A stretch of DNA of 54,674 bases, taken from contig JAAXXZ010000001.1 in NCBI GenBank assembly GCA_013334245.1, positions 1 through 54,674 on the forward strand. Reading direction: 5' to 3'. Each line of letters begins with the position of its first letter. The stretch's first letter is position 1. The position numbers and the translations under genes are program-made. The notes beneath the pieces were generated by a model. That model was not told where the DNA came from. It saw only the letters and a program-made list of their open reading frames with translations, and did no database searches. Source of the DNA: Candidatus Moraniibacteriota bacterium (GTDB lineage Bacteria; Patescibacteriota; Minisyncoccia; Moranbacterales; UBA1568). This document shows positions 1,095 to 17,010 of the stretch, piece after piece.

Positions 1095-4000
1095 CTACTT
1101 CACCTCCGGCGTGCCCTTTTTCCGTGCGATATAGTAGCGATAGGCGCCATAGGCGGCAGCACCCGCTATGATGACCCAAATCCAGGTATTCGGGCCTCCT
1201 GAGGCCGTTTCAGCCCCTTCCACGGCCCCCTGCTCGCCTGCCTGCGCCCCTTCCACGGTCCCATTGACGGTCTCCGAACCGGATCCGGCCCCCTCGACCC
1301 CCGTTCCGGCACCGGCTGCTCCCGGCGTCAAGGTGACGCTCCCGGCAGCAGTCGTATCCTCGTAGACGGTCACATGATTCGTTTCGGAGATATCCTCCTC
1401 GCGAACCGGCGATGCATTCCCCGCATCGTCGAAGGCACGAACGGCATAGAATACCTTCTTTCCGCAAAGCGAATCCGGACGAACATCGTCGTACGCATAG
1501 GTAGCATTCGGTCCGACCGCAGCCGTATGGACCATGGTCGAAGCGTCCGCAGTGAAGTCTTCGCTCGTCGAACGGTAGACCTCGACATGCGTGGTCTGAC
1601 CATCGTCTGCCGTACGGAGCTTCACACGGTTCGTGCAGCTCGACATGTAGCTCTTGTCGATCGACTTCGGCTTCCCGGGGAAGATCGTATCGTACGAAAC
1701 CGTACTCTCTTTGCTCGTCGCCACCTCGGACCCCGACGTCGCCCGGACACGGAACACATAGGTACCGTCGTCCGGAAGTTCCGCTGCCCCGACCGAACAC
1801 TGGCCGGAATCACCGCCCTCCTGGACCGTCATCGACTGAAACGTCGTGAAGTCCGACTCGCCCGGCTTCTTCACCTGACACTTCACCGTGATGGCACCCG
1901 ACTGGTCCGTATCGAGCGTGACAAAGTCGAGCGTGAACGAACCGTTCGCCGCGACTGCCGGCTTCTCCGCGCGGATATAGAGATCCGGAACGGAATCCGC
2001 CTTCGCCGTATCCGTCGCCACGAATCCGAGCGACATCGCGAACGCGAATATCGCCGCGCCCTTCCCCCACTTCTTGAGAATCCTGGTAAACATATCCTTC
2101 TTCATCGCGTATCCCGTCCCCGCGAGCGCGGCTCCGAGAATCAGCAGTAACCCGAGCAGCATGATCAGGAACGTCGGCGATCCGGTTTCCGGCAGTGTCG
2201 CGCCGAGCACCCGTCCCTTTACGACCTTCTTCTCCTTTTCCGTGTGATCGGTCGTCACCTTCGCCGGGTCGGGCGTGGACGAATCCGCGACCGCGATCGC
2301 GGTACCCACGTAGCGTCCGTCCTCGATGTTGCCGCCGAGTCCCGCCATGGCATACAGGTTCCCACCCTGACCGACACCCTGCGCGTACGCAAGGTCCGGA
2401 TATTCACCGGCGTCCGTTCCGGCATTCACCGTCGCATCATAGGATAGCGTCACGACTTCGCCGTCTTGCAATTCACCAAGGTCCCAGATACCCGGCGATG
2501 CATACACGTGATCAAGTTTGAGATTGCCGACATGTGCCCCGCCGAGACTCGATTCGGCCGTCCACGAATCCGGCACGTAGGTCGCGACTTCCGGAGGAAG
2601 GTCGGTTGTCTTCACGTCGAGCACCTTTCCTTCGGACGCGGTCACCTTCAGCGTATATTTCACCGTCTCACCCGGCTTTCGCTCTTCGCCGTTCGTATCG
2701 TTTTCCTTCTCGATCGAGAGAAGTCCGAGCTTCGCGTTTCCGAAGTCATACTTCGGACCGACGACCATGTTTTCCACACTCTCTTCCTGTCCGTTATCGG
2801 GCAACGTCACCGTATGGCACGATGTCTCACCCGAAGGATATGTCTGTTCCCAGCCGTCTTGCATCACTTCACAGACGCTATAGGTCCCGGGAAAGAGATG
2901 GTCGAACCAGTACCAGCCCAATTCGTTTTCATCCGAGGACGTCTGCGTGGACTGTTCCCCGTCGTCGAGTTTGCCGTCACCATCCTTGTCGAGGAAGATC
3001 GACCATCCGGACAGATACGGTTCGCCCTCCACATCGCGTTCACGATCCATATCGCGATCCTCCCACTTCTGACCATGGATGGTTCCGTTCGGGGTGTTGT
3101 AGAACGTACAGACCGTTTCGGCATCCTTTGACACGGTCACGCCGTATACGATGTTCCCATCGAGGAGTCCGTTCTCGACGCCGCAGTTCGCTCCGATCAG
3201 TTCGTATCCGTCCTGAGTCGTCTCGGCGACCGAATACTGCCCGGTCTTCAGGCCGGTAAACGACACCAAGCCGTCCGCACCCGTCGATACCGGAACCGGA
3301 TTGCCCGTATCGGTGCCCGTCCCGTTCACATCGAACTCCCAACCCGTTCCGTGAGTCTGATCGTCGGTCGTCGAAAGATTCCCGTCCGCGTCGATCACCT
3401 TGTTCACCTTGATACGACCCGTATCGCGGGTATTGGTGAAGGTGCAGGTCATCTCTCCGCCCGGATTCATCGAAAACTCGGCTGGATCGATATGATGGCC
3501 GCTCCTGTCTCTGTTGTCATCCTTGTCGTTATTGTTGTCATTGTCGAAACGGTTGTCATTGTTGTCGCCATCCTTTCCTTCATCGTGGCGACCATCCTTG
3601 TCACAGTCGAATTTCACATCCTTCTTCTCGTCCACGCAACGGACTCCCGTCAGGCTCCATCCCGCCTGCTCCGCCTCGGAAATTCCGTACGTATTGTCAG
3701 GATCGATGCCCGAGAACGTCTGCATCGCGGAACCGTTCACGGTCGTCAGCGATGCGCTTTCCGGCAATGTCGTGCCGCTCATCGCGAAGTCGAACGTCCC
3801 GTCGCTCCCGACCGCTTTCTTCACGAGTTTGATCTTCCCGAGCTTCTTGTTCGTGAACGTACAGGTGATATGTTCGCCCGGTACCGCGTTGATCGCGGAT
3901 ACTTCGCTTCCATCGCTGCAAACCGCTCCTGCCAATTTCCAACCAACCAATGAATTTTCAGCCACTGAATATGTTCCGGGTTTTACTGAGAATGTCTGCT

Positions 4001-7000
4001 CATTGGAATGTCCAGGCCACCAATTCCAACCATCATCATCAAGGGTGAAATTTGAAGGGATTCCGTCTCCGAAATTATTGCTGAAAGTGAAATCCTGTGA
4101 ATCATCAGGAATCGCATCCTTCTTGACGGTGATCTCGGCCCGCTTCGTATTGGTGAACGTACAGGTCACGATCTCTCCCGGATCGAGCGCGATATGGTTC
4201 GGATCGCTTCCGTCCGAACACGTCACGTTCGTCATATCCCATCCGGATTCCCCTTCCTCGCGCACCGAGTAGGTGCCCGGCACCAGGATTCCGCTATCGC
4301 GACGCTCCCCGTCCTTGAGCTCGAAGTTGCGCCATCTGTCCCAACTCGGATCGAACTCGAACTTCGTCCTGTCCCCGTCCGGAAGCGTCTGCTTCTCGAC
4401 GACGATATGGCCGCGCTTCGTATTCACAAACGTGCAGGTGATCGTCTCGCCGGGATCAAGTTTAAGGGTCGCCTTCCTGGAGCCGACGCTCGTAGTCGAG
4501 TTCTTCGCTCCGGTCTCGTCGCATGTCAGACCCGTGAGATCCCAACCGCCGACGCCTCCCTCCGTGAAGGCGTATGTTCCCGGGAACAGGGTCGTGAATG
4601 TCCGCGTATTCGAGTGATCGTTCGCGTTGTCGCCGTCATCGTCGAGCGTAAAGCCGGTGACGTTCTTTCCGGTCGCCACGAACGTGAAGTCCTGCGCATC
4701 GTCCGGTGCCGCGTCCTTGATAATCGTGATCGTGCCCTTGTTGATCTCGTTGCTGAAGGTGCAGACGGTCGTCTTTCCCTTTTCCACCGTAGTCGTGGCG
4801 GATCCGTTGGTCAGGTCGACCGATCCGCCGGTCGGCGAGCACTGTATGGACGCCGTCTTATACCCGCTCGGTCCGCTTTCGACGATGGTGTGCGTATCGA
4901 TCGTCGTCACCTGGCCGAAATCGACCATTCCACGCGAATCAGCCGAGACCGGGGTACCGTTATCGAGTGAGAATTTCCACTTCCTCAGGTCGGATCCGTC
5001 GTCGATGACCTTCACGGCCTTCAATCCGCCCTTGTCGCGGGTATTCGTAATGTCACAGGTCGCGCTGCCACCCTCGTCAAGTTTCACCTTGTTGTCGTTC
5101 AGCGTCGCGCCCGAGCAACTCCAGGTTCCCGGAGTGTATCCGTCCTTCCCGGTCTCGGACAGCGTGTATTCGATATTCGAGTACGCGGACGCATCCGTGA
5201 ATCCTCCGTTTCCCGAGATCGTCACAGCACCCTTGTCATTCGCCGCGGGCATCGCCGAAAGGTTGAAGTCCGCGGCACTCGCCGTCCCGCCGGACACGAG
5301 TTTTCTCAGGGTCAGTTTCGGCGCGATGTCGTCGTTCGTGATGGTGCAGGTCTTGTGGTCGCCGTATGAGAGCGCTATGGAGCCGTCCGTAGCACAGTCT
5401 CCTTCCCACGCCGATGCACCGTAGCCCTCGCCGCCCGACAGGACCGATTCGCTCGCGGTATAGGCTCCCGGAGTCAGTGTCGTCACCGAACCCCACGCGA
5501 CTGAATCGGCGCCGATCTTCCCCTCGAAGTTCGCCGTTGTCGCGTTTCCGCCGTTATCGTTCGTCACCGTCTTGTGGAGCGTCAAGGTCGGCAATTCGCC
5601 GTTCGTAAAGACACAGGTCACCGTCTCGCCTGCCTGCAGGCTGATCGCACCGATAGGGCTCTGGTCGCTGCAGACCGCGGACACCTGCGTCCAGCCCGTC
5701 GGCACCGCTTCGCTTACCGAATACGTTCCCGGAGCAAGGTATCCGCTGTCATTCGATCCGTTGTCGGAGAGTGAAAACTTCTGACCATAATTCGGAGTGA
5801 ATTCGAACGACTGGGCCGACCCTTCCGGACTCGTCTGTTTCTCGATGATGATCTTTCCGGCCTGGTACGTCTTCACGGCATCGGCACCCGAGCCGAGTGC
5901 GCCGTCCGTCGATCGGGCAAGCGTGAGTCCGCCGACGGATACGTTCGCCGACGCATGTACCGTCACCGTTCCCGGCGTGGCACTGTTGAAGACGATCGTG
6001 CACTGTCCGTTCGTATCGGTATTCGCACCGGCATCGTCACATGTGCTATGAGCGGCATCCAGGGTCGATATGGCCCCGCTCCCGTCGGTCAGCGTGAAGT
6101 CGACGTGTTCGCCCGAAGCCGCCGTCCATCCCGTCCCGTCGTTTTCCGTGACCGTGACGGTGAACGTGTGCGAGACATTGACGTTGTTCGTCGCGGCTGT
6201 CTTGTCGAAGGCTATCCGCGCTCCGACGACCTTCACCGTCTCGCTGTCATCGTCTTCCGCCATGTTGTTCTCGTTGTCCTTGACCGTGACTTTGGCCGTG
6301 TTGCCGTATGTTCCGGCGACGGCATGGTTCACGACATAGGAGCAGGTCGTCGTCGCGTTCGGCGCGATCGTTTGCCCGACCAATGCGAGACAGGCGGGAC
6401 TCAGTGCGTTACTGTCGGTAAGTGCCGTAATGGAAACGGTTTCCACCGACGTGTTTTTGATCGTCAGGGTGTAGGTGAAGTTTCCGCCCGGTTCGGCCAT
6501 GCCGGTCGTGTCGACGGACTTCTCGATCGTGATCGACGGCTTGACATCCGTGAACGTCACGGTCGCATCGTCGCTATCGTCCGCCTTATTGTTCTCGTTG
6601 TCGACCGCGATAGTCCTGAATATGTTCGTATGCGAGGTATTCGCATCGCCGGAGATCGATTTCGTCGTCTGGAATGAGCAGGAAGCGCCGGCGGCAAGCA
6701 CGGTGCCGACCTGGCAGTCCGCATCGCCCGAGAGGGTACCGAACCGGTCATCGACAAGCATCGTGATCGTGACGGACTCCGTCGCGCTCGTATTCTTCAC
6801 GTCGAACGTATAGGTCACATCGCCTCCCGGCTCGTCGATCGTGGCTACGTTTGCGGTCTTCGTCACCTCGATCGTCGGTTTGACATCCGTTATCGTTACC
6901 GTAGCATCGTCACGCTTCGTATCCGTTGATTCGTCGTTATCGGTAACGGTTGCCGTCACGACGTCTGTATGAACACCCGGCTCGCCACTCACGGAACCCG

Positions 7001-10000
7001 TGAAACTACACGCATATTCGGCGCCGGCAGCGATCGTACCTCCGATAACGCAGGTGCCCTTGCCGTTCAGATCACCATAGATATCGTCCGAAAGGCTCGT
7101 CAGCGTGACCGACTCGAAACTCGTATTCCGAACCGTGACCGAGAAGGTCGCGTCACCTCCGGGTTCCGGAAGCGTCGTCGGGTTCGCGCTCTTCGCGACC
7201 TCGATCGTCGGCTTCACGTCCGTGAAGGTCACGGTCGCGTCGTCCGAATCGGTAGCGGTGTTTTTCTCTTCGTCTTCGGCAACGGCAGTGAAGGTATTCA
7301 CATGAGAGGTGCCGGCATTGCCGGATATCGTCGCCGCGAGCGTGAACGTACAGCTCGCGCCGATCGGCAGAATCGTTCCCACCTTACAATCCGCATCGCC
7401 AACAAGCGTTCCGAGTTTGTCATCGAAAAGAGAAGCGACGGTGACTGCGTCCGCCGGACCGGTATTCTTGACCGTGAACGTATATGTAACGCTATCGCCG
7501 TTCTCCGGAACCGAAGCCTTGTCCGCTTCCTTAGTTACGTCTATCGTCGGCTTGTAGTCGATATCGTCATTCGTGATGGTACAGGTCTTGGTTTCGCCGA
7601 GCGCGATGGAACCGGCGCACTCGGAAGAGAGCGCCTTCTCGTACCCGTCATGTGTCCCCTCGTCCACGGTATACGGACCCACGGTCGTCAGCACATTGTC
7701 CACGCCGGATTCCGAACCGTTGGCGGTCGGATGAGTCGTCGTGACGCCGGATATCGTCGTCGCGAACTGCGCGGCGACCTTCGTCCCGTCACTGTCGTTC
7801 ACGACATGCTTCTTGACGATCAGGTGCGCCGGCTCGTCGTCGTTCGTCACTATGCAGGTCTTGGTCTGTCCGTTCGCGATGGTTCCGGAGCACCCGGAAT
7901 AGCTTGCCTCATATCCGGCGACCGCATCCTCGCTCACGCCATACGATCCAGCATCAAGCGTCACGGTCGTCCCGGCTTCCGATCCGGCAAACGAACCGCT
8001 TGAGACGTCGGTACCGGTCACCTTCATCGTGAACGCATCCGCGCTCGCCACGCCGCCGTTATCATTCACGACGTGCTTTTTCACGACGAGCGTCGCGGGC
8101 TTGTCCTCGTTGGTCACGGTACAGGTCTTGGTCTGGCCGATGGCAATGGCCCCGGCACAGTCCGCGGACATCGAACTCAGGTATCCGTCAGGACCGGACT
8201 CCGTGACCGTGTACGATCCCGGCATCACGGTCCTGTCCGTTCCCGGCGTCTCCTGTCCTGAGAAAGAGCTGCCGCCGTTTACGGTGATGCCGTTTATGGT
8301 CATCGTGAAGTCTGCCGACGAGGCGGATCCGCCCTGGTCGTTGTTCACGTGCTTGATGACGATGAGGTGTGCGGGGATATCGTCGTTCGTGATCGTACAG
8401 GTGGCCGTACCCCCGTTCGGCACGACGACGTTCTCGCAGTTGTCATAGGTCGTGGCATATCCGGCGATTCCCGGCTCCGTGACCGTATACGTACCGGCAT
8501 TCACCGAAACGTCGTTCTGTCCGTCCGCTTCGAAAGCGACCGTATTGCCACCATTCACCTTGAACCCGAAGTTCTCTGCCTTGAGCGTTCCGCCATTATC
8601 GTTCGTCACGACCTTCTTCACGATGAGTGTTCCCGGTTGGTCATTGTTCGTTATCGAACAAACGGTACTTTTTCCAAGACCGAGCGTGATTTTGTTATCC
8701 GCTGAAACGATCACGCCGTTACTGCACGTCCATGCACTCGCCGAATATCCCGAAGGTCCGCCTGTTTCGGACAGTGTGTATGTGTCAGCCTTGAAGCCTG
8801 ATCCGCTGACGACATCGGTCGAACCACTTGCACCGTTTCCGGAAAGATCTGTCGCACCTGCTGCGGTTCCCGTAGCGGAAAGCGTCCAGTCCGATTCGTT
8901 CGCGGAACCGCCGTTATCCTTCACGAGAATCTTATCGAGTGTCAGGGACGGGGCGATATCGTCATTCGTGATCGTGCAGGTTTTTTCCTGTCCCGCGACG
9001 ACGGCAACGACACCGTCGCTGTTACAGTCGCCACTAAATCCGGTCTTGGCGTAGCCGGATACCGGCGCATCCTCGCTGACCGCATATGATCCGGCATTCA
9101 GGGTATACACCGTACCCGTGGCGGAACCTGCTGCCGGACTCCCGGAAACATCCGATCCGCCCGACTTGACGTGCAGATTGAAGGACGACGACGAAGCCGA
9201 GCCCCCGTTATCGTTTATGACACTCTTAATGACGCGCAATGTTCCCGTCTGTTTCGTATTCGTGAACGTGCATTTCACCGTCTCGCCCGGATCGACTTTG
9301 AACGTTGCGCTACGCGTTGAAACATCCGTCGTGCTGGGCGTGGCCGATGCACCGTCGTCACAGGATATGGAAGACAACGTCCAACCGGTCGCGGCCGACT
9401 CGGTCGAGGTGTATGTTCCCGGCGTCACGTTGTTCACGGTGATCGTCCCGTTATTCGTCGATATGGTTCCGCTGGGATTTCCCGTATACGTGAAATTCCC
9501 CGTTCCACCGACCATATTCTTCTGAACGATCATCGTCCCTTTATTGGTCGTGTTGATGAAGTCGCAGGAGATGATATCGTCCGCACCAACCTCGATCCCG
9601 GTGACGCCGTTCGAAGCAGCAGTTCCGACCGACGTTGTCCCGTTCTTCGTACAGCTTGCCGAGCCGAATGAATACCCTTGAACAGATCCGGTCTCCGTCA
9701 CGGTCTTTCCGGAGCCGACCGATACGGGAACGGCTTCGGTCTGACCGTTCGAATCGGTAGCTACCGTCGTCCCGGACACATCAAACGTCCATCCCGCACC
9801 GCCCTTATGATTGACGTCATCATAAAACTTATTGACCGTGATCGTCCCTCCGCAGGTCGACGAGGCGAACTGCCCCAGCTTGGCCGACATCCCACTGAAG
9901 TCGGTCGTGATGACATCGGTTGACGTGAGATCTGAACCATTGACGGTCGGTCCGGAAATCGCCTTCAGGTTCTCGGTACTCAATCCGCTGCCGACACCGA

Positions 10001-11642
10001 TTCCGAGTACCAGAATCCTGGTATTATCGGCCCCTTTTATCTGATTCGCTACGGACGCGGCCTGGTTGACCGCATCGGACACGGTCGTCGAAGAGCCGTT
10101 ATCGACGGTGTTCGGATCGCCGTCCGATGCGAAAATGACAAGGTTCGGCTTCGACGTTCCGGAGGAGAAAGTGGATCGTGCCTTTACGAGACCGTCTTCC
10201 CAGTTCGTAAAACTTCCGCTCGTGATCGAATCGATCTTCGACTTCACGAGCGAGCCATCCGACGTGAAGTTCTGAAGCACCGAAGCGGTCGTATTGAATT
10301 TCGTGACGGAAAACCGGGTGGGAGTGCCCGCCAGCGCATCGACGAATCCCTTCATCGCCGTTTTCATCTGACCGAGTTCGGTGGAACTGATACTCCCGGA
10401 ATTGTCGAGCACGAGCGCGATATCGAGCCCGCACGCCTGAGAAAGCGCCGGGTTTGCGACCGACTGCAACGTCGTAACGGCGAATGTCTTGACTGCGCTC
10501 GGCTCATGGTTCGAGTTCGCGTTCTGACAGTTGCTTTGACTGGTAAAGCCGTGAATCTCCGCCGACCAATTATTATCGACTGTCGCGTCAGCAGGCAAAA
10601 CGTAAGAAGCCGTCAATTCACGACTCGCATCCGGCTGCTGACAGCCTGCCATGTAGGATAAGTTTCCGTTTCCCGGAGGATCGATCGCGAACCGATAGTA
10701 ATTGCCGGAAACGAGATCTCCCGCCTTCATGAACACCGCTTCTCCTTGTTGGTAGGAGGTTTTCGTCACGGTCAAAGTCGCATCGGAATACGTCGTGACA
10801 TAGATCGTAAAATGATCCTGACTGAACTCCACGTTCTTCTCGCCGACTTTCACGTCGTTTCCCGGAACGGTCTGAGGATCGTCCAACTGTGACCGTTCTT
10901 CCGCAAACTTCACCTCTACGATTCCGACCTCGGCAGGCTTGGGCAGCGTCAAGGAATATTCGAACGTCCCGTCCGTCATGTCGGAGGTGATGTCATACGC
11001 CTTGTTGGAAAGCGCATTGAGACCTTCCACCTGCTGATCGGAGAGCGTGACCTCCTCGATGGAGAGCTTGCCGGGATTTTCCGGCAGCTTGCCGAACGTG
11101 ACGGTCACCTGATCGTTCTGCGGCGCGACATAGGTCCGGCCGAGTTCGACCGCACTTCCGGTCGTCTCCTTGTCGCCGTCCCTTACCCATTCCGGTGCGC
11201 GTTCGGCCGAGGCCTCGCCTTCGGCCTCCACGGTCGGCACGGCCGGTACCTCCGGCGTCACCGCCCCAGCTACCGGCGCTTCGGTCGGTTCGACCGTCTG
11301 AACAGGCTCGCTCACGACAGGAGCTGTTTCAGTCGACGGTTCGACGGCTGCGGCCGGTTCTTCGGCCTTCGGTTCTTCGACCGGAACAACCACCGGTTCC
11401 ACCGCGGGAGCGGCGACTTCTTCCGTCTTCGTTTCGACGGGAGCTGTCTTCTCTTCCACTTTCGGTGCTTCCGCTTCGGTAGACGCCGAGGCTTCCGTCG
11501 CGACCGACGCGCCGTCACCGCTCGAAATCTCCTGTGAGAAGATCACCGCCGGTGCGACCGGCTGCAACAGCATCGAGAAGATGACCACCGTGTCGAACAG
11601 GCGGAACCATCTCCTCAACTTCCGTGTCATCATGAGCGTCAT
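1095..11642 (-). CDS. Giant surface adhesin: vWA, prealbumin-like and DUF11 repeats, internal LPETG
   Basis: A 3,515-residue secreted protein. In order: signal peptide (about 1-36); Pro/Glu/Ala/Val-rich linker (about 40-150); a beta-rich domain; a vWA domain (about 403-598) with the MIDAS motif DNSGS near 412; two blocks of prealbumin/SpaA-like repeats (about 600-1360 and 1928-2850) with recurring TNDNGG and CTFTNT motifs; four DUF11-type repeats beginning KPTI or KPSI (about 1361-1800); a Big-1-like domain (about 1807-1925); an SdrD-B-like domain (about 2852-2965) with DKDGDGKLDDGE; a further DUF11-like domain; then LPETG at 3150-3154 and a membrane segment. Unusually the frame continues: MKKDMF at 3180, a second signal-like segment ending AKA-DS (3196-3215), a fibronectin-like domain, a Gly/Ala linker and a last membrane helix before KKGTPEVK. 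It probably acts as a cell-wall or membrane-anchored adhesin. The exact start (M1 or M4) is not fixed by a clear ribosome binding site. Confidence 0.85.
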   Translation of the reverse strand: MTLMMTRKLRRWFRLFDTVVIFSMLLQPVAPAVIFSQEISSGDGASVATEASASTEAEAPKVEEKTAPVETKTEEVAAPAVEPVVVPVEEPKAEEPAAAVEPSTETAPVVSEPVQTVEPTEAPVAGAVTPEVPAVPTVEAEGEASAERAPEWVRDGDKETTGSAVELGRTYVAPQNDQVTVTFGKLPENPGKLSIEEVTLSDQQVEGLNALSNKAYDITSDMTDGTFEYSLTLPKPAEVGIVEVKFAEERSQLDDPQTVPGNDVKVGEKNVEFSQDHFTIYVTTYSDATLTVTKTSYQQGEAVFMKAGDLVSGNYYRFAIDPPGNGNLSYMAGCQQPDASRELTASYVLPADATVDNNWSAEIHGFTSQSNCQNANSNHEPSAVKTFAVTTLQSVANPALSQACGLDIALVLDNSGSISSTELGQMKTAMKGFVDALAGTPTRFSVTKFNTTASVLQNFTSDGSLVKSKIDSITSGSFTNWEDGLVKARSTFSSGTSKPNLVIFASDGDPNTVDNGSSTTVSDAVNQAASVANQIKGADNTRILVLGIGVGSGLSTENLKAISGPTVNGSDLTSTDVITTDFSGMSAKLGQFASSTCGGTITVNKFYDDVNHKGGAGWTFDVSGTTVATDSNGQTEAVPVSVGSGKTVTETGSVQGYSFGSASCTKNGTTSVGTAASNGVTGIEVGADDIISCDFINTTNKGTMIVQKNMVGGTGNFTYTGNPSGTISTNNGTITVNNVTPGTYTSTESAATGWTLSSISCDDGASATPSTTDVSTRSATFKVDPGETVKCTFTNTKQTGTLRVIKSVINDNGGSASSSSFNLHVKSGGSDVSGSPAAGSATGTVYTLNAGSYAVSEDAPVSGYAKTGFSGDCNSDGVVAVVAGQEKTCTITNDDIAPSLTLDKILVKDNGGSANESDWTLSATGTAAGATDLSGNGASGSTDVVSGSGFKADTYTLSETGGPSGYSASAWTCSNGVIVSADNKITLGLGKSTVCSITNNDQPGTLIVKKVVTNDNGGTLKAENFGFKVNGGNTVAFEADGQNDVSVNAGTYTVTEPGIAGYATTYDNCENVVVPNGGTATCTITNDDIPAHLIVIKHVNNDQGGSASSADFTMTINGITVNGGSSFSGQETPGTDRTVMPGSYTVTESGPDGYLSSMSADCAGAIAIGQTKTCTVTNEDKPATLVVKKHVVNDNGGVASADAFTMKVTGTDVSSGSFAGSEAGTTVTLDAGSYGVSEDAVAGYEASYSGCSGTIANGQTKTCIVTNDDEPAHLIVKKHVVNDSDGTKVAAQFATTISGVTTTHPTANGSESGVDNVLTTVGPYTVDEGTHDGYEKALSSECAGSIALGETKTCTITNDDIDYKPTIDVTKEADKASVPENGDSVTYTFTVKNTGPADAVTVASLFDDKLGTLVGDADCKVGTILPIGASCTFTLAATISGNAGTSHVNTFTAVAEDEEKNTATDSDDATVTFTDVKPTIEVAKSANPTTLPEPGGDATFSVTVRNTSFESVTLTSLSDDIYGDLNGKGTCVIGGTIAAGAEYACSFTGSVSGEPGVHTDVVTATVTDNDESTDTKRDDATVTITDVKPTIEVTKTANVATIDEPGGDVTYTFDVKNTSATESVTITMLVDDRFGTLSGDADCQVGTVLAAGASCSFQTTKSISGDANTSHTNIFRTIAVDNENNKADDSDDATVTFTDVKPSITIEKSVDTTGMAEPGGNFTYTLTIKNTSVETVSITALTDSNALSPACLALVGQTIAPNATTTCSYVVNHAVAGTYGNTAKVTVKDNENNMAEDDDSETVKVVGARIAFDKTAATNNVNVSHTFTVTVTENDGTGWTAASGEHVDFTLTDGSGAISTLDAAHSTCDDAGANTDTNGQCTIVFNSATPGTVTVHASANVSVGGLTLARSTDGALGSGADAVKTYQAGKIIIEKQTSPEGSAQSFEFTPNYGQKFSLSDNGSNDSGYLAPGTYSVSEAVPTGWTQVSAVCSDQSPIGAISLQAGETVTCVFTNGELPTLTLHKTVTNDNGGNATTANFEGKIGADSVAWGSVTTLTPGAYTASESVLSGGEGYGASAWEGDCATDGSIALSYGDHKTCTITNDDIAPKLTLRKLVSGGTASAADFNLSAMPAANDKGAVTISGNGGFTDASAYSNIEYTLSETGKDGYTPGTWSCSGATLNDNKVKLDEGGSATCDITNTRDKGGLKAVKVIDDGSDLRKWKFSLDNGTPVSADSRGMVDFGQVTTIDTHTIVESGPSGYKTASIQCSPTGGSVDLTNGSATTTVEKGKTTVCTFSNEINKGTITIIKDAAPDDAQDFTFVATGKNVTGFTLDDDGDNANDHSNTRTFTTLFPGTYAFTEGGVGGWDLTGLTCDETGAKNSTTSVGSRKATLKLDPGETITCTFVNTKRGHIVVEKQTLPDGDRTKFEFDPSWDRWRNFELKDGERRDSGILVPGTYSVREEGESGWDMTNVTCSDGSDPNHIALDPGEIVTCTFTNTKRAEITVKKDAIPDDSQDFTFSNNFGDGIPSNFTLDDDGWNWWPGHSNEQTFSVKPGTYSVAENSLVGWKLAGAVCSDGSEVSAINAVPGEHITCTFTNKKLGKIKLVKKAVGSDGTFDFAMSGTTLPESASLTTVNGSAMQTFSGIDPDNTYGISEAEQAGWSLTGVRCVDEKKDVKFDCDKDGRHDEGKDGDNNDNRFDNDNNNDKDDNRDRSGHHIDPAEFSMNPGGEMTCTFTNTRDTGRIKVNKVIDADGNLSTTDDQTHGTGWEFDVNGTGTDTGNPVPVSTGADGLVSFTGLKTGQYSVAETTQDGYELIGANCGVENGLLDGNIVYGVTVSKDAETVCTFYNTPNGTIHGQKWEDRDMDRERDVEGEPYLSGWSIFLDKDGDGKLDDGEQSTQTSSDENELGWYWFDHLFPGTYSVCEVMQDGWEQTYPSGETSCHTVTLPDNGQEESVENMVVGPKYDFGNAKLGLLSIEKENDTNGEERKPGETVKYTLKVTASEGKVLDVKTTDLPPEVATYVPDSWTAESSLGGAHVGNLKLDHVYASPGIWDLGELQDGEVVTLSYDATVNAGTDAGEYPDLAYAQGVGQGGNLYAMAGLGGNIEDGRYVGTAIAVADSSTPDPAKVTTDHTEKEKKVVKGRVLGATLPETGSPTFLIMLLGLLLILGAALAGTGYAMKKDMFTRILKKWGKGAAIFAFAMSLGFVATDTAKADSVPDLYIRAEKPAVAANGSFTLDFVTLDTDQSGAITVKCQVKKPGESDFTTFQSMTVQEGGDSGQCSVGAAELPDDGTYVFRVRATSGSEVATSKESTVSYDTIFPGKPKSIDKSYMSSCTNRVKLRTADDGQTTHVEVYRSTSEDFTADASTMVHTAAVGPNATYAYDDVRPDSLCGKKVFYAVRAFDDAGNASPVREEDISETNHVTVYEDTTAAGSVTLTPGAAGAGTGVEGAGSGSETVNGTVEGAQAGEQGAVEGAETASGGPNTWIWVIIAGAAAYGAYRYYIARKKGTPEVK

Positions 11643-11908
11643 ATGCGTCTTTGTTACTGATTCGGATAAAAATCAAATATAAAAAACCGACGAAAGTTAC
11701 GCAGAAAAACTGCTGAACTTTCGTCGGCCTTCAAACCGAAAAAGCATTTCATCAAACAAGCCTTTCTCATACGCATCCGGACGAAAACCCTCGTCCGAAA
11801 TTATCGTATCACCCGTATCAGCCCCCCTCCGGGGCTTGTTTATGTTGGTTTGAGTGTAAACCATTTCCATACCCCCTGGCAAGCCCTTTTTCAGCACCTG
11901 CCGCACGA
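11642..11908 (-). promoter_or_regulatory. Leader RNA with attenuator, copy 1 (giant adhesin)
   Basis: About 265 nt of untranslated leader between the promoter at 11915-11943 and the start codon. Visible structure in the RNA: a 9-bp stem AAACAAGCC (11833-11841) with GGCUUGUUU (11754-11762), enclosing GAUACG/CGUAUG and GGACGA/UCGUCC helices. Next come the box UAUGAGAAAGGC, the box CGGUUUGAAGGCCGACGAAAG, and an intrinsic terminator. CGG/CCG around UUUGAAGG can form an alternative hairpin that uses the 5' arm of the terminator. The two boxes and the terminator are shared with copy 2 upstream of the TasA-like operon. I recognise no known riboswitch class. Confidence 0.6.
11681..11727 (-). terminator. 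Attenuator terminator in leader copy 1
   Basis: A 12-bp perfect stem (CCGACGAAAGTT with AACTTTCGTCGG; 11687-11698 and 11716-11727) with an inner GCAG/CTGC helix, followed on the minus strand by six U residues (11681-11686). It stands about 38 nt before the start codon of the giant gene and downstream of a good promoter, so it must be read through for expression. Confidence 0.8.
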
Positions 11909-11914
11909 CCGGTC

Positions 11915-11943
11915 ACCATAGCAATAGAACGCCTATTTGTCAA
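11915..11943 (-). promoter_or_regulatory. Sigma-70 type promoter of the giant adhesin gene
   Basis: TTGACA (11938-11943 on the minus strand), 17-bp spacer, TATGGT (11915-11920). It places the transcript start near 11908, about 265 nt before the start codon. Confidence 0.7.
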
Positions 11944-12649: not shown

Positions 12650-14101
12650 TTAGGTCGTCGGATTACCCCCGTCACCGGCGCTTCCCGCACCATCCGTCCC
12701 CGAACCGCCACTGTCACCGCCCGAACCGCCCGTATCCTTCGGTGTACTATCGCCAGTTCCGGTATTCGATTCCCGTTTCGTCGTATCGGTCGCAGTAGCT
12801 GTGGTCGTGTCCGTCGCATTTCCGTTTCCGGTCGCGTTGCTATCGTTCGAAGTATTTGTTCCGGCATCTGTTCCGCTCGTCGGGACTGTTCCTCCGGACA
12901 CGGGCAGCGTCTTATCTGTCGATGAATCGGTCGGCGTAGTCGACGTATCTGATGCCGGATCCGTCGCGATTCCCCCATCAACTATCGTATCAGATTCCCC
13001 CTCTTCCTGTTCGTCCAGATAATCAGCCTCCATGAAAGCGGGATCGTATTCGGGCGAACTCGGGTCGTTCACCGAAAGATTCTTGCCTCCCGGCGTACCG
13101 AAGTTCGGCCCCAAACTCCCGTTGCCGTTCCAATACTTCGTATCCCTGCAGCCCTTGTCCACGCAGGTATGCCAGTTATCCTTTTTGGTCCCGTCCTTGG
13201 GCGAATCATTCCGTTCCATGGACATGTGCAGCAAGATACCGTGCCATCCGGCCGGCCACCCGCAAGACGGCGTCCGGTCTATGACATGGTGTCCATTGTC
13301 CGAAAGCGTCAGCTGTTCGCCCTTCTTCAGAAGATTCATGCCGGCTACATGCGACAGACCTTCGTCCCGTGCGAGATCTTTCGACAGATTCACCTTGGTC
13401 TCGCTCCACTTTTTTCTCAGTATCAGGAAGTAGCCTTTCGACTCGATGCTATAGCCTCGAGGAATTTCGATATGCCCGTTTCCACTTCCTCCCCTGCCGA
13501 TATGCCAGTTCGAAAGATCAATAGGATGGTCGGTCATATTCCGAAGTTCGATCCATTCATCTTCCGATTCTCCGAATGAGCCCATCCACATGACCTCGTT
13601 TATAACCACATCGCCCAACGCCACCGCCGCCGCGACCGTGAAATCGCGCTCCATCACAGCGCTTCGCCACGCATCGTTGCCATCGTTTATCGCGACCGCC
13701 TGGAAATGCGTCGGGTTCCCATCCGGAACCGGGATGCAAGTACCTTCATATTTTGAACCTCCCGCCTTCGGGTCACCATCGGACGAAAACTCGTACCAGA
13801 TGGTCGCGGTCCCCGAGGAGAGTCCCGAATATGAGAGTGCCACACACGGTGTCGTCGCATATGTTCCGTCCGGACCGTCGGGAGTTTCTGGCGAGACGGT
13901 CATGCCAAGCGTAGGAATCCAATAACCCGACACGAATGAATTCCCATTATTCCCTGCCTTGTCCGCAAAAAACGCGTTCGTTCCCGGTACCGACGACATC
14001 CGCAGTACGAGCATCACGCACACCACGACGAGCGCCGTCCGGAGCAAGCTACTCCCGATGGCACATATCGATGGTGGATTGTATGGCACCGTACGCATCA
14101 T
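12650..14101 (-). CDS. Secreted lamin-tail domain (LTD) protein with SipW-type signal
   Basis: A 483-residue protein. An N-terminal hydrophobic segment (about 21-34) is followed by NAFFADKAGNNGNSF, which resembles the SipW-processed signals of TasA-like proteins. A lamin-tail domain starts near VVINEVMWMGS and continues through EDEWIELRNMTDHPIDLSNWHI. The C-terminal 100 residues are a Ser/Thr/Asp/Gly-rich low-complexity tail. LTDs occur in many secreted bacterial proteins, often with nucleases or surface layers; their ligand is not known here. The gene follows sipW by 17 nt and precedes the TasA-like gene by 7 nt, so the three are probably co-transcribed. Confidence 0.8.
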   Translation of the reverse strand: MMRTVPYNPPSICAIGSSLLRTALVVVCVMLVLRMSSVPGTNAFFADKAGNNGNSFVSGYWIPTLGMTVSPETPDGPDGTYATTPCVALSYSGLSSGTATIWYEFSSDGDPKAGGSKYEGTCIPVPDGNPTHFQAVAINDGNDAWRSAVMERDFTVAAAVALGDVVINEVMWMGSFGESEDEWIELRNMTDHPIDLSNWHIGRGGSGNGHIEIPRGYSIESKGYFLILRKKWSETKVNLSKDLARDEGLSHVAGMNLLKKGEQLTLSDNGHHVIDRTPSCGWPAGWHGILLHMSMERNDSPKDGTKKDNWHTCVDKGCRDTKYWNGNGSLGPNFGTPGGKNLSVNDPSSPEYDPAFMEADYLDEQEEGESDTIVDGGIATDPASDTSTTPTDSSTDKTLPVSGGTVPTSGTDAGTNTSNDSNATGNGNATDTTTATATDTTKRESNTGTGDSTPKDTGGSGGDSGGSGTDGAGSAGDGGNPTT

Positions 14102-14118
14102 ATCGGAACGATATTTTC

Positions 14119-14745
14119 CTACACGATTTTCCGTTTCTCCACGCTTTTGGCTTCGTTCACTGCCACCGGTTCCTGCACACGCACCTGCGGTTCTTCGGTA
14201 TGTGCGATGTTTTCTTTTACCTTGACTTCACGCTTCTTCTTCCACAGGGCGGCGACTTCCATTCGTATCTTCTTCAGCTCCTCGTACACGATGATCGCGG
14301 CGGGCACTATCACGACGAGTGCGAATCCTTCTTTCGTCTTCGCGAAGTTCACGGCATAGCCCATCCACGGCACTGTCACCGCTTCCTTGCCGATAATCGA
14401 CGAGACAGGAATATCCTCGGCATCGGCCACATCGTTCGCGTCGCCCTTGGTATGGAACACCGTATCACCGTCGCGGTCGATCTTTTCCGAGATGCGGTGC
14501 GTCACGGTCACTGCGGGGTCCTCGGTCTTGCGCGTTACAACGTCGCCCACCTGATAGGACGCCTGCGGAATGACGAAGATGATGCTCCCCGTATGCAACG
14601 TCGGTTCCATCGAACCCGAAAGCACCGTATACAGTCGTACGCCGGCCACCGAGAACATCGAGAGCAGCACCGCAAGCGCGAGCAGCAGGAACGCCGCATA
14701 CACCGTATTCACCATGACCGAAAAGAACTTCTTCATATCCGACAT
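14119..14745 (-). CDS. sipW: Signal peptidase I, SipW (ER) type
   Basis: A 208-residue membrane peptidase of the archaeal/ER type. An N-terminal helix (about 11-35) precedes the catalytic serine in VLSGSMEPTLHTGS (S45). The general base is histidine (H83 in TVTHRI) in place of the lysine of the LepB type. The box HTKGDANDVADAEDI matches conserved box E. A second hydrophobic segment near GFALVVIVPAAIIVY precedes a long charged cytoplasmic tail, Lys/Glu/Val-rich. In Bacillus, SipW processes TasA and TapA. Here it lies between two TasA-like genes upstream and two probable substrates downstream, so it is almost certainly the dedicated peptidase of this locus. Confidence 0.92.
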   Translation of the reverse strand: MSDMKKFFSVMVNTVYAAFLLLALAVLLSMFSVAGVRLYTVLSGSMEPTLHTGSIIFVIPQASYQVGDVVTRKTEDPAVTVTHRISEKIDRDGDTVFHTKGDANDVADAEDIPVSSIIGKEAVTVPWMGYAVNFAKTKEGFALVVIVPAAIIVYEELKKIRMEVAALWKKKREVKVKENIAHTEEPQVRVQEPVAVNEAKSVEKRKIV

Positions 14746-14819: not shown

Positions 14820-15434
14820 CTAGTTGCTCCGACCTTCGATCGAGAGATCGAACTGCGCAAGCATACCCTGTAACGTGCTCTGATCGCCGCCCGTTTCGGG
14901 AAGCTCGGCATCCAATGTCATCGTTAGGGAACTTCCGGCAGCAAGAGACGGGGTCGCGCCCCACTGCGTCGCATGAAGGATATCCACACCGGAAAGTCCG
15001 CTCAACGGACCCTTATATACTTCACATCCCTTTCCGGCGACGAATGACACGCCCGGATTCGAACAACCGCCCCACCCGGCGTTCGCATACAAGGACACGG
15101 TAAGCGCATTAAAAAGTTCGCCCGGATTTCCGGATTTCTTCACTGCGGTCGTCAGCAGCTTTTTTGCGGATACCGTGCTTGAACCGGAAAAATACGGCTG
15201 ACCGTAATTTTGAAGCGTGAACTGCTTCTCGACGACCGTACCCGGGATCGCATTTTGCACGTTAAATCCCACGATCGACGGCTCGCCATCGACGCGAATA
15301 TCTAATGTTCCCGCAGAAAACGTATTGTTCGTGACCGTCGCCTTATCACTGAAATACGCATAGGTCGCACCGCCCGCTATCGCCGCAACGGCAGCTATCA
15401 TCGAAACACTTTTCAAAATCTTCATCATATTCAT
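14820..15434 (-). CDS. TasA/camelysin family fibre protein 2
   Basis: A 204-residue protein with the SipW-type signal MMKILKSVSMIAAVAAIAGG followed by ATYAYFSDKATVTNNTFSAGTL, a hallmark of CalY/TasA proteins (cleavage expected near TYA-YFSD). The mature domain has the family pattern NAIPGTVVEKQFTLQNYG near its start and a C-terminal SSLTMTLDAELPE strand. Its signal is nearly identical to that of the next gene upstream, so the two are paralogues with diverged mature parts. sipW starts 75 nt downstream. Family members form amyloid-like biofilm fibres or act as surface metalloproteases (camelysin); no zinc motif is visible, so a fibre role is likelier. Confidence 0.85.
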   Translation of the reverse strand: MNMMKILKSVSMIAAVAAIAGGATYAYFSDKATVTNNTFSAGTLDIRVDGEPSIVGFNVQNAIPGTVVEKQFTLQNYGQPYFSGSSTVSAKKLLTTAVKKSGNPGELFNALTVSLYANAGWGGCSNPGVSFVAGKGCEVYKGPLSGLSGVDILHATQWGATPSLAAGSSLTMTLDAELPETGGDQSTLQGMLAQFDLSIEGRSN

Positions 15435-15609: not shown

Positions 15610-16242
15610 CTACTGCGTCAGACCGAACTCCACATCGACGTCCGCGGCATCAGTCATAATCTCGTTTCCAGCTGAAGTCGGGATATACCAGACGAGCTTG
15701 ACATTACCCAATTTACTCTCATCGTCCGTCGCGCCGCTCTGCGCCTGCAGATTTCCAAGCGCATAATTGGTATACGTGCTGTTCCAATCCGCCAGCGTTG
15801 CATCCCCGACTTCCGCAAATGAGGTTTCGGAACCCTGCTTATAGAACACTTTGACGCGAAGATTCTCCGGAAGATTGCCCGGTCCATTCACGTTACAACC
15901 CGTTCCTTCCGCCGCGAGACAACTCACCTCATGTCCCGTGACTATGAATGTAATCGTTGCCTTACCAGCGACGCTGCCCTCGTTCTTCAAATCGACAATC
16001 TGTCCTTCACCTGAAGAAAATCCCGGGAACAAGTCCGCAAGTGAAACAGTCGTGTTGTTGAATGTCTTCACCCATTGGTGAGCACCGCTCGCTGGATTGC
16101 TATCGACTTTCAAATCCATCGATCCCGACGTAAACTTATTGCCCGTAATGCTCGCCTGAGACGACCACAATGCATACGTAGCGCCGCCGGCGACCGCCGC
16201 GACCGCGACGACGAGCGACAGGCTCTTGAGAATTTTCATCAT
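15610..16242 (-). CDS. TasA/camelysin family fibre protein 1
   Basis: A 210-residue protein starting at the ATG at 16240-16242, preceded by AAGAAGAAAGAAT. The 47 residues of open frame further upstream fall in the leader RNA and look non-coding. It has the signal MMKILKSLSLVVAVAAVAGG then ATYALWSSQASITGNKFTSG, closely matching its paralogue 175 bp downstream, and the TasA pattern FSSGEGQIVDLKNEGSVAGKA. The C-terminus ends VDVEFGLTQ. It is the first gene of the SipW operon, expressed from a promoter near 16528-16556 through an attenuator-bearing leader. It is probably the major fibre subunit or one of two. Confidence 0.85.
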   Translation of the reverse strand: MMKILKSLSLVVAVAAVAGGATYALWSSQASITGNKFTSGSMDLKVDSNPASGAHQWVKTFNNTTVSLADLFPGFSSGEGQIVDLKNEGSVAGKATITFIVTGHEVSCLAAEGTGCNVNGPGNLPENLRVKVFYKQGSETSFAEVGDATLADWNSTYTNYALGNLQAQSGATDDESKLGNVKLVWYIPTSAGNEIMTDAADVDVEFGLTQ

Positions 16243-16521
16243 ATTCTTTCTTCTTAGAAAAAATGAGTTATTCCAACAAAAACCGCCTCGACCTGGGGAC
16301 CGTCCCCGCGCGGCACTTTCGGTTTCTCTTTCGCCCCCGAAAACAAACCTTTCCGAGGCAATGAAAAAACCGACAAAAATCATGCAGAGAATCCTGCAAA
16401 ACTTTCGTCGGCCTTCAAACCGATCACGCGCTGTTCGTCTATTGCCTTTCTCATAGGCTTCCTGATGAAGTACATCATCTGCGGAGACCCTGGCGGCCGC
16501 CCTCCCAGGCGCATACTCGAC
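16243..16521 (-). promoter_or_regulatory. Leader RNA with attenuator, copy 2 (TasA-like operon)
   Basis: About 280 nt of leader between the promoter and the first gene. It shares with copy 1 the box UAUGAGAAAGGC (plus-strand 16444-16457), the box CGGUUUGAAGGCCGACGAAAG (around 16403-16423) and the terminator architecture. The upstream helices differ in sequence: GAUGA/UUCAUC around UGUAC, and GCCU/AGGC. The UCGG/CCGA alternative hairpin around UUUGAAGG would compete with the terminator. The two operons joined by this element both encode surface proteins. Confidence 0.6.
16363..16411 (-). terminator. Attenuator terminator in leader copy 2
   Basis: The 5' arm CCGACGAAAGUU is identical to copy 1, while the 3' arm has changed. 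All 12 positions still pair, with G-U wobbles, and the inner GCAG/CUGC helix is kept. Six U residues follow. It lies about 120 nt before the start codon. Pairing kept despite sequence change supports a functional RNA structure. Confidence 0.75.
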
Positions 16522-16527
16522 ACCTTC

Positions 16528-16556
16528 ATCCTACACCGGACCAACGCTCAAATCAA
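16528..16556 (-). promoter_or_regulatory. Probable promoter of the TasA/SipW operon
   Basis: TTGATT (16551-16556), 17-bp spacer, TAGGAT (16528-16533) on the minus strand. A TTGACA at 16562-16567 is too far from this -10 and has no good -10 of its own. Confidence 0.45.
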
Positions 16557-16619: not shown

Positions 16620-17010
16620 CATAAATTTTTTCTCTTTGAGACAAGGCGCTTACCCGGAAAATACGGGGTATCTCGTTGCGCAGGGCGAGATTTTTTTCTC
16701 CCTTTCGTGAAAGGGAGCTTGCCCCACAAAGGCGGGTACCCGTACTCGGAATCAGATGTATTTCTCCCTTTTGAGAAAGGGAGTACCTGTACTCAGGGAG
16801 GGATTCTTTTCTCCCTTAGGAAAAGGGAGATGTCCAGCAGGACAGAGGGATTTAACCGAATGAAAATCCACTTTGTCATTTCGGAAAATCCCCCTGTCCC
16901 ATCAAGAGATGGGACGTCCCCCTTTTTCAAAGGGGGAAACCCGACTTAGATCTGTTAACCAATATTTTTCAAAGTGGGAAACCCAGACACTGACTTTTTC
17001 AAAGTGGGAC
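16620..17010 (-). repeat. Palindromic repeat cluster 3 (inverted)
   Basis: The same A and B units as clusters 1 and 2 in reverse orientation: B-like units at about 16690-16750, 16757-16806 and 16809-16856, an A unit at 16883-16946, and two half-A units (TTTTTCAAAGTGGGA) at about 16966-17008. The segment 16809-16946 is an inverted copy of 764-895. The stretch 17011-17119 holds nothing I recognise. Confidence 0.8.

Follow-up and report, generated by a model that had tools for sequence, protein, structure and literature searches.

Leader sequences shared by adhesin and TasA-like fibre genes of a Candidatus Moraniibacteriota genome probably act as translation-coupled attenuators

The DNA considered here (the window) is a stretch of 54,674 nucleotides (nt) from an uncultivated ultrasmall bacterium, Candidatus Moraniibacteriota (assembly GCA_013334245.1, contig JAAXXZ010000001.1). 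In it, a giant adhesin gene and an operon for SipW-dependent TasA-like proteins each follow a long leader with an intrinsic terminator, and the two leaders share two sequence boxes. All of the leader and gene features discussed lie on the minus strand of the window. What do these leaders respond to? The initial annotation suggested a new class of riboswitch. We found that the underlying observation is real and broader than first seen, that the riboswitch reading is unsupported, and that the best reading makes both leaders ribosome-coupled transcription attenuators, which would probably work in the manner of the pyrBI (pyrL) attenuator of Escherichia coli. The evidence is at the level of sequence: a leader open reading frame (ORF), its overlap with the terminator, a conserved hairpin confined to a single order, and a marked preference for positions before attachment genes.

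The leader regions, promoters included, span 11943-11643 and 16556-16243, and the two copies align to each other with E=1.2e-13. Box 1 (UAUGAGAAAGGC) is at 11760-11771 and 16444-16455, and box 2 (GGUUUGAAGGCCGACGAAAG) at 11718-11737 and 16402-16421. The box-to-box spacing is 45 nt in both leaders, and across the 1.117 Mb genome the boxes are present at these two places only. The leader length of about 260 to 280 nt given in the initial annotation agrees with our estimates (approximately 265 and 276 nt, from inferred transcription starts). Alignment confirmed that all 12 lower pairs of the second terminator still form, three of them as G-U or U-G, and that the GCAG/CUGC helix is retained. A promoter had been reported before each leader; the first is a good one and matches at 10 of 12 positions, where shuffled sequence is expected to yield 0.5 sites, while a rule-based scan of the region upstream of leader 2 passed nothing and left a weak candidate picked out by eye. 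The features of the two leaders are as follows.

11915..11943, minus strand: promoter 1, TTGACA-17-TATGGT with TG ahead of the -10, from the promoter rule scan
11643..11908, minus strand: leader 1, approximately 265 nt from the start predicted by promoter 1
11809..11818, minus strand: AUACGGGUGA, the GGGUGA-type box of leader 1
11654..11770, minus strand: leader ORF 1, the reading frame from the box 1 ATG, MRKACLMKCFFGLKADESSAVFLRNFRRFFIFDFYPNQ and a stop, holding both boxes and crossing the terminator
11681..11728, minus strand: intrinsic terminator 1, within leader ORF 1 (model R1, described below, 54.9 bits)
16528..16556, minus strand: promoter 2, weak, TTGATT-17-TAGGAT, by eye
16243..16520, minus strand: leader 2, approximately 276 nt from its predicted start
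16380..16454, minus strand: leader ORF 2, MRKAIDEQRVIGLKADESFAGFSA and a stop, from the reading frame, with the stop codon within the terminator hairpin
16364..16412, minus strand: intrinsic terminator 2 (model R1, 52.1 bits)

In both leaders, the ATG inside box 1 opens a reading frame that includes box 2 and enters the terminator, reading MRKACLMKCFFGLKADESSAVF... in leader 1 and the peptide listed above in leader 2. The adhesin orthologue in genome G005 (G and L numbers are our handles for genomes and loci) has MKKACLESILGGMNGKTDR... at the equivalent place, where a length change of 6 nt leaves the frame intact. Read in this way, the two boxes are codons, the start and the end of a short leader ORF, rather than the core of an aptamer.

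We measured how general this arrangement is in related leaders, taking as start the ATG nearest -42, or else a GTG, and scoring whether its frame was open into the hairpin. The start frame was open in 31 of 33 loci, where 300 dinucleotide shuffles gave 9.3±2.4 and never more than 16; in these loci the remaining two frames were open in 5 and 13. The stop codon fell within the hairpin in 22 of the 33, against 4.7±2.0 in shuffles. Every held-out locus with a start had an open start frame (12/12, with 1 and 3 for the other frames), and over all 56 loci the counts were 50 for the start frame and 7 and 20 for the others. As a negative control, we scored terminators of cyclic di-GMP (c-di-GMP) riboswitches of the c-di-GMP-II-GAG type in the same order; the frame was open in 3 of 11.

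A leader ORF could also serve an attenuator of the TnaC, Erm or trp/his kind, in which a small molecule or an uncharged transfer RNA stalls the ribosome on a nascent peptide or on control codons. Besides the ORF itself, KAD/KAN/KAS and SR/SQ motifs recur at the base of the hairpin, and Phe and Lys each make up approximately 12% of the upstream codons. However, the recurrent motifs arise when identical nucleotides are read in one frame or another, and Phe and Lys are nearly as frequent (9%) in the other frames. Changes between close pairs show no bias by codon position (29, 29 and 33, with 8 synonymous and 48 non-synonymous codons), and the ORF reads the hairpin nucleotides in all three frames, depending on the lineage. 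Judged by these comparisons, the leader peptide is not conserved. Because it is not, and because lineages differ in the frame used across the hairpin, an arrest peptide or a set of control codons is quite unlikely, and we rejected the narrower idea of an arrest peptide or conserved small protein on the absence of codon-position bias and the changing frame. The trp and his attenuators resemble the window leaders in joining a leader ORF to an intrinsic terminator, but the window-type leaders have no run of control codons and no conserved antiterminator; moreover, classical amino-acid attenuators place the terminator beyond the leader ORF, more than 20 bp past the leader gene (PMC4824070), whereas here it overlaps the ORF. 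With the peptide unconserved and the frame variable, it is the act of translation, not the peptide product, that appears to be under selection; in other words, what is kept seems to be a path for the ribosome into the terminator.

The second line of evidence is the hairpin. The terminator hairpins before the TasA-like operons of order-level relatives give a nearly gapless alignment outside the loop, with a fixed geometry of 18 pairs. In this alignment 90.6% of cells are paired and 15 of the 18 pairs have changed on both sides; the set was gathered as hairpins, so pairing as such was preselected, but the fixed geometry and the conserved positions were not. The covariation score is 0.687, compared with 0.293±0.026 in shuffles, and is far above slid controls as well. 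We found no common fold for the leaders when whole truncated leaders were folded individually, and a profile search of the genome contigs with the TasA alignment returned only six loci. We built the covariance model R1 from 20 hairpins, using the hairpin alone. R1 has matches in 39 of the 131 genomes of the order, at one to nine places each (mirror hits on the reverse strand included), and, in a search of 384 class genomes, each of the 10 that reached E<=1e-5 belonged to this order. The idea of a common generic terminator of the genome was rejected, since the pattern occurs only twice in the genome and R1 has no match with E<=1e-5 outside the order.

The genes behind the element provide a further check. 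Held-out R1 matches are followed mostly by genes for adhesins, TasA-like proteins and secreted repeat proteins that we describe as curli-like (Pfam names almost none of these proteins), and they are spread over many genera; one match precedes a gene for a family-2 glycosyltransferase. The adhesins behind held-out matches have an N-terminal domain in common with the window adhesin. When we searched in reverse, starting from that domain, most of the genes found had this kind of hairpin 20-130 nt before them, in many cases preceded by a CGGGUGA-form box. Thus, the search proposed in the initial annotation, a covariance model followed by inspection of downstream genes, recovered held-out covarying copies before attachment genes, although with a model of the hairpin only, and these copies support its proposal that fibre and adhesin genes are controlled together through an attenuator-type leader that they share. 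The giant adhesin and the TasA/SipW operon that it had named also stand; their features are listed here.

1095..11642, minus strand: giant adhesin of 3515 amino acids with SpaA repeats and VWA, ATG at 11642
16288..16293, minus strand: GGUCGA element between terminator 2 and the first gene of the operon, typical of TasA-type leaders
15610..16242, minus strand: SipW-dependent TasA-like protein, the first gene of the operon
14820..15434, minus strand: second TasA/camelysin-like protein, SipW-dependent
14119..14745, minus strand: SipW-like signal peptidase I (cognate_SipW)
12650..14101, minus strand: lamin-tail-domain protein, in the same operon

The GGUCGA element, which in many cases reads AAGGUCGAGGG with a possible hairpin after it, is present in 16 of 20 TasA-type leaders, against 3 of 23 for adhesins and 3 of 11 for curli-like genes, and has no match in Rfam. 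A palindromic repeat of 30 nt (TTTCTCCCTTT..AAAGGGAG) occurs three times upstream of the TasA operon, at 16688-16830.

In some genomes the element is repeated. Contig 47 of G028 carries three, perhaps four, serial attenuator copies before one curli-like gene (L124, 1328-2489); for the copies at 1732 and 2103, 371 nt apart, the hairpins and the 90-nt parts upstream are identical. In G003, tandem pairs of elements precede a curli-like and a TasA-like gene (L041, L042) and another element precedes the adhesin orthologue (L139), placing the same element on three attachment systems of one genome.

These distributions bear on the plainest account of the hairpin, an upstream terminator with no regulatory role, there to insulate the operon or to close a tiny gene. 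The form is that of an intrinsic terminator, and a few R1 matches precede no surface gene, as such an account would have it. Yet leader 1 has its own promoter, the geometry is conserved within a single order and strongly associated with one gene class, tandem copies stand before a single gene, and an ORF running into the hairpin works against insulation. We consider this account very unlikely.

Another candidate element is the GGGUGA box. Of 56 related leaders, 30 have it 15-110 nt ahead of the hairpin, whereas control stretches gave only 1 and 0. Its enrichment, together with a hairpin geometry more constant than termination requires, could point to antitermination by a protein (RAT/BglG-like or some other RNA-binding protein) acting at the box or at the hairpin, with the ORF incidental. 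Such a protein would leave the open start frame unexplained, however, and we found no conserved hairpin overlapping the 5' arm of the terminator. The box, moreover, is often just ahead of, or at, the start of the ORF, and may for that reason belong to translation initiation. Antitermination by a protein is in our view highly improbable.

A ribosome-coupled attenuator would operate as follows. The leader ORF, of approximately 20-40 codons, would bring a ribosome in a frame that enters the 5' arm of the terminator; in most relatives the stop codon sits inside the hairpin. A ribosome close behind the RNA polymerase would cover the 5' arm and the loop, so that the hairpin could not fold, and the adhesin or fibre genes would be transcribed. 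If translation of the leader were weak or late, the hairpin would fold and transcription would stop. In short, leader translation would open the terminator and turn the attachment genes on. We infer, by analogy, that the ORF is translated and that its translation prevents termination, since ribosomes near terminators suppress them in E. coli: termination was approximately 90% with a stop codon 28 bp ahead of a terminator and fell to less than 10% when the stop codon was moved to 5 bp (PMC4824070). The input would then be translation as such, and not a ligand; it could reflect ribosome supply, nutrient state or attachment state, the first two being the simplest.

The closest known system is pyrBI of E. 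coli, whose intrinsic terminator likewise lies within a short leader ORF, a leader gene of 135 bp (PMC4824070), and is kept from forming by tight coupling of ribosome and polymerase (PMC4824070, PMC5021804); for the window leaders the same is proposed by analogy. The two differ in that pyrBI controls pyrimidine genes and senses UTP, whereas leaders of the window type precede adhesins, TasA-like and curli-like proteins, and in that a U-rich pause site ahead of the hairpin seems not to be kept in the genus of the window. The likeness is one of working, known here from the layout of the sequence, and no sequence relation is claimed; the window leaders are described as working like pyrBI and are not classed as pyrBI/pyrL members.

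Several observations weigh against such coupling. A Shine-Dalgarno match of 5 nt or more is present at only 10 of 40 leader starts, most having no clear match, and the unconserved peptide deprives the ORF of the usual codon-level proof of translation. The distance from the start to the U-tract has a median of only 93 nt, and coupling is hard to establish at such short distances without a pause of the RNA polymerase (PMC4824070); a U-run before the hairpin is found in 2 of 10 leaders of the genus, though in 25 of 56 overall, compared with 5.8 in shuffles. A few R1 matches (in G085, G036, G102 and G041) have no surface gene downstream. Finally, the loci are related to each other, and the counts given above are not fully independent.

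The riboswitch proposed at the outset takes the boxes as the core of an aptamer, or of another structured RNA, and the CGG-UUUGAAGG-CCG hairpin as its antiterminator. The boxes are indeed conserved, and the local pairing is predicted in both window copies (0.72 and 0.62); as a conserved element, however, the antiterminator does not hold up, with pairing of the 5' arm to upstream sequence at 0.36 over 42 loci against 0.43 in shuffles. An Rfam search of the window found no family at its gathering score, and permissive thresholds returned two eukaryotic microRNA families, both below theirs. A riboswitch would also leave the openness of the start frame unexplained. As to the ligand, for which cyclic dinucleotides had been suggested, GGAnGCnUAUGA and GAAGGCCGAC somewhat resemble the c-di-GMP-II-GAG consensus, and relatives have c-di-GMP-II-GAG elements before the same genes. 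Against this, the Rfam covariance models for c-di-GMP-II and c-di-GMP-II-GAG have no match in the window, and none of the six genomes of its genus (G000-G005) encodes a GGDEF domain, which is present in 55 of the 131 genomes of the order. A divergent c-di-GMP-II aptamer, suggested by eye from the boxes, was rejected because there was no pseudoknot, model hit or GGDEF gene. A new ligand-binding RNA is therefore unlikely.

The c-di-GMP-II-GAG riboswitch (RF03169) nevertheless shares much with the window leaders: it occurs in the same order before the same gene classes, often in tandem upstream of the leader-ORF element, and has similar terminator geometry. The differences are that the window leaders have no recognisable aptamer or pseudoknot, Rfam match or GGDEF gene in their genus, and that c-di-GMP-II-GAG terminators have no conserved ORF across them. 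In relatives, c-di-GMP-II-GAG elements precede TasA-like operons, a uridine diphosphate (UDP)-sugar dehydrogenase, a glycosyltransferase-like gene and a probable sensor gene; only those at L064 (G050) and L084 (G286) are above the Rfam gathering score, the others being below it or identified by eye. We recorded elements of this likeness with terminators at L064 (1211-1303), L059, L074, L080, L085, L086, L046 and L091, and more at L125 (near 707), L126 (near 2819), L134, L135, L138, L164, L168 and L171. Across the order they precede TasA-like, adhesin, secreted and polysaccharide genes, often directly upstream of a leader-ORF attenuator; seven genomes have this order of elements (G035, G053, G092, G473, G069, G073 and G079).

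Because the genus of the window has neither GGDEF genes nor a recognisable aptamer, the c-di-GMP and translation inputs appear separable. We tentatively raise the possibility, which we consider less probable than not by some way, of an order-wide, translation-gated checkpoint on attachment. Selection on the ORF would act only to have it translated across a terminator whose geometry is fixed. In several lineages the ORF would follow a c-di-GMP-II-GAG riboswitch in series, and expression of the adhesin and fibre genes would then need both c-di-GMP and active translation.

Translation-coupled attenuation is a known kind of control; these leaders would place it in a group where we found none described, as our search of open-access papers returned no report of such an element there. 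In Patescibacteria, the switching between attached and swarmer states has been described as completely unknown, with regulation of translation suspected to be key (PMC11665869). The element described here is a concrete one in cis, present across one order ahead of adhesin and fibre genes; by its logic it would sense translation directly, and through it a leader switch may link attachment to translation. If the checkpoint exists, it would be a route by which host-dependent Patescibacteria could couple their attached state to the state of their translation.

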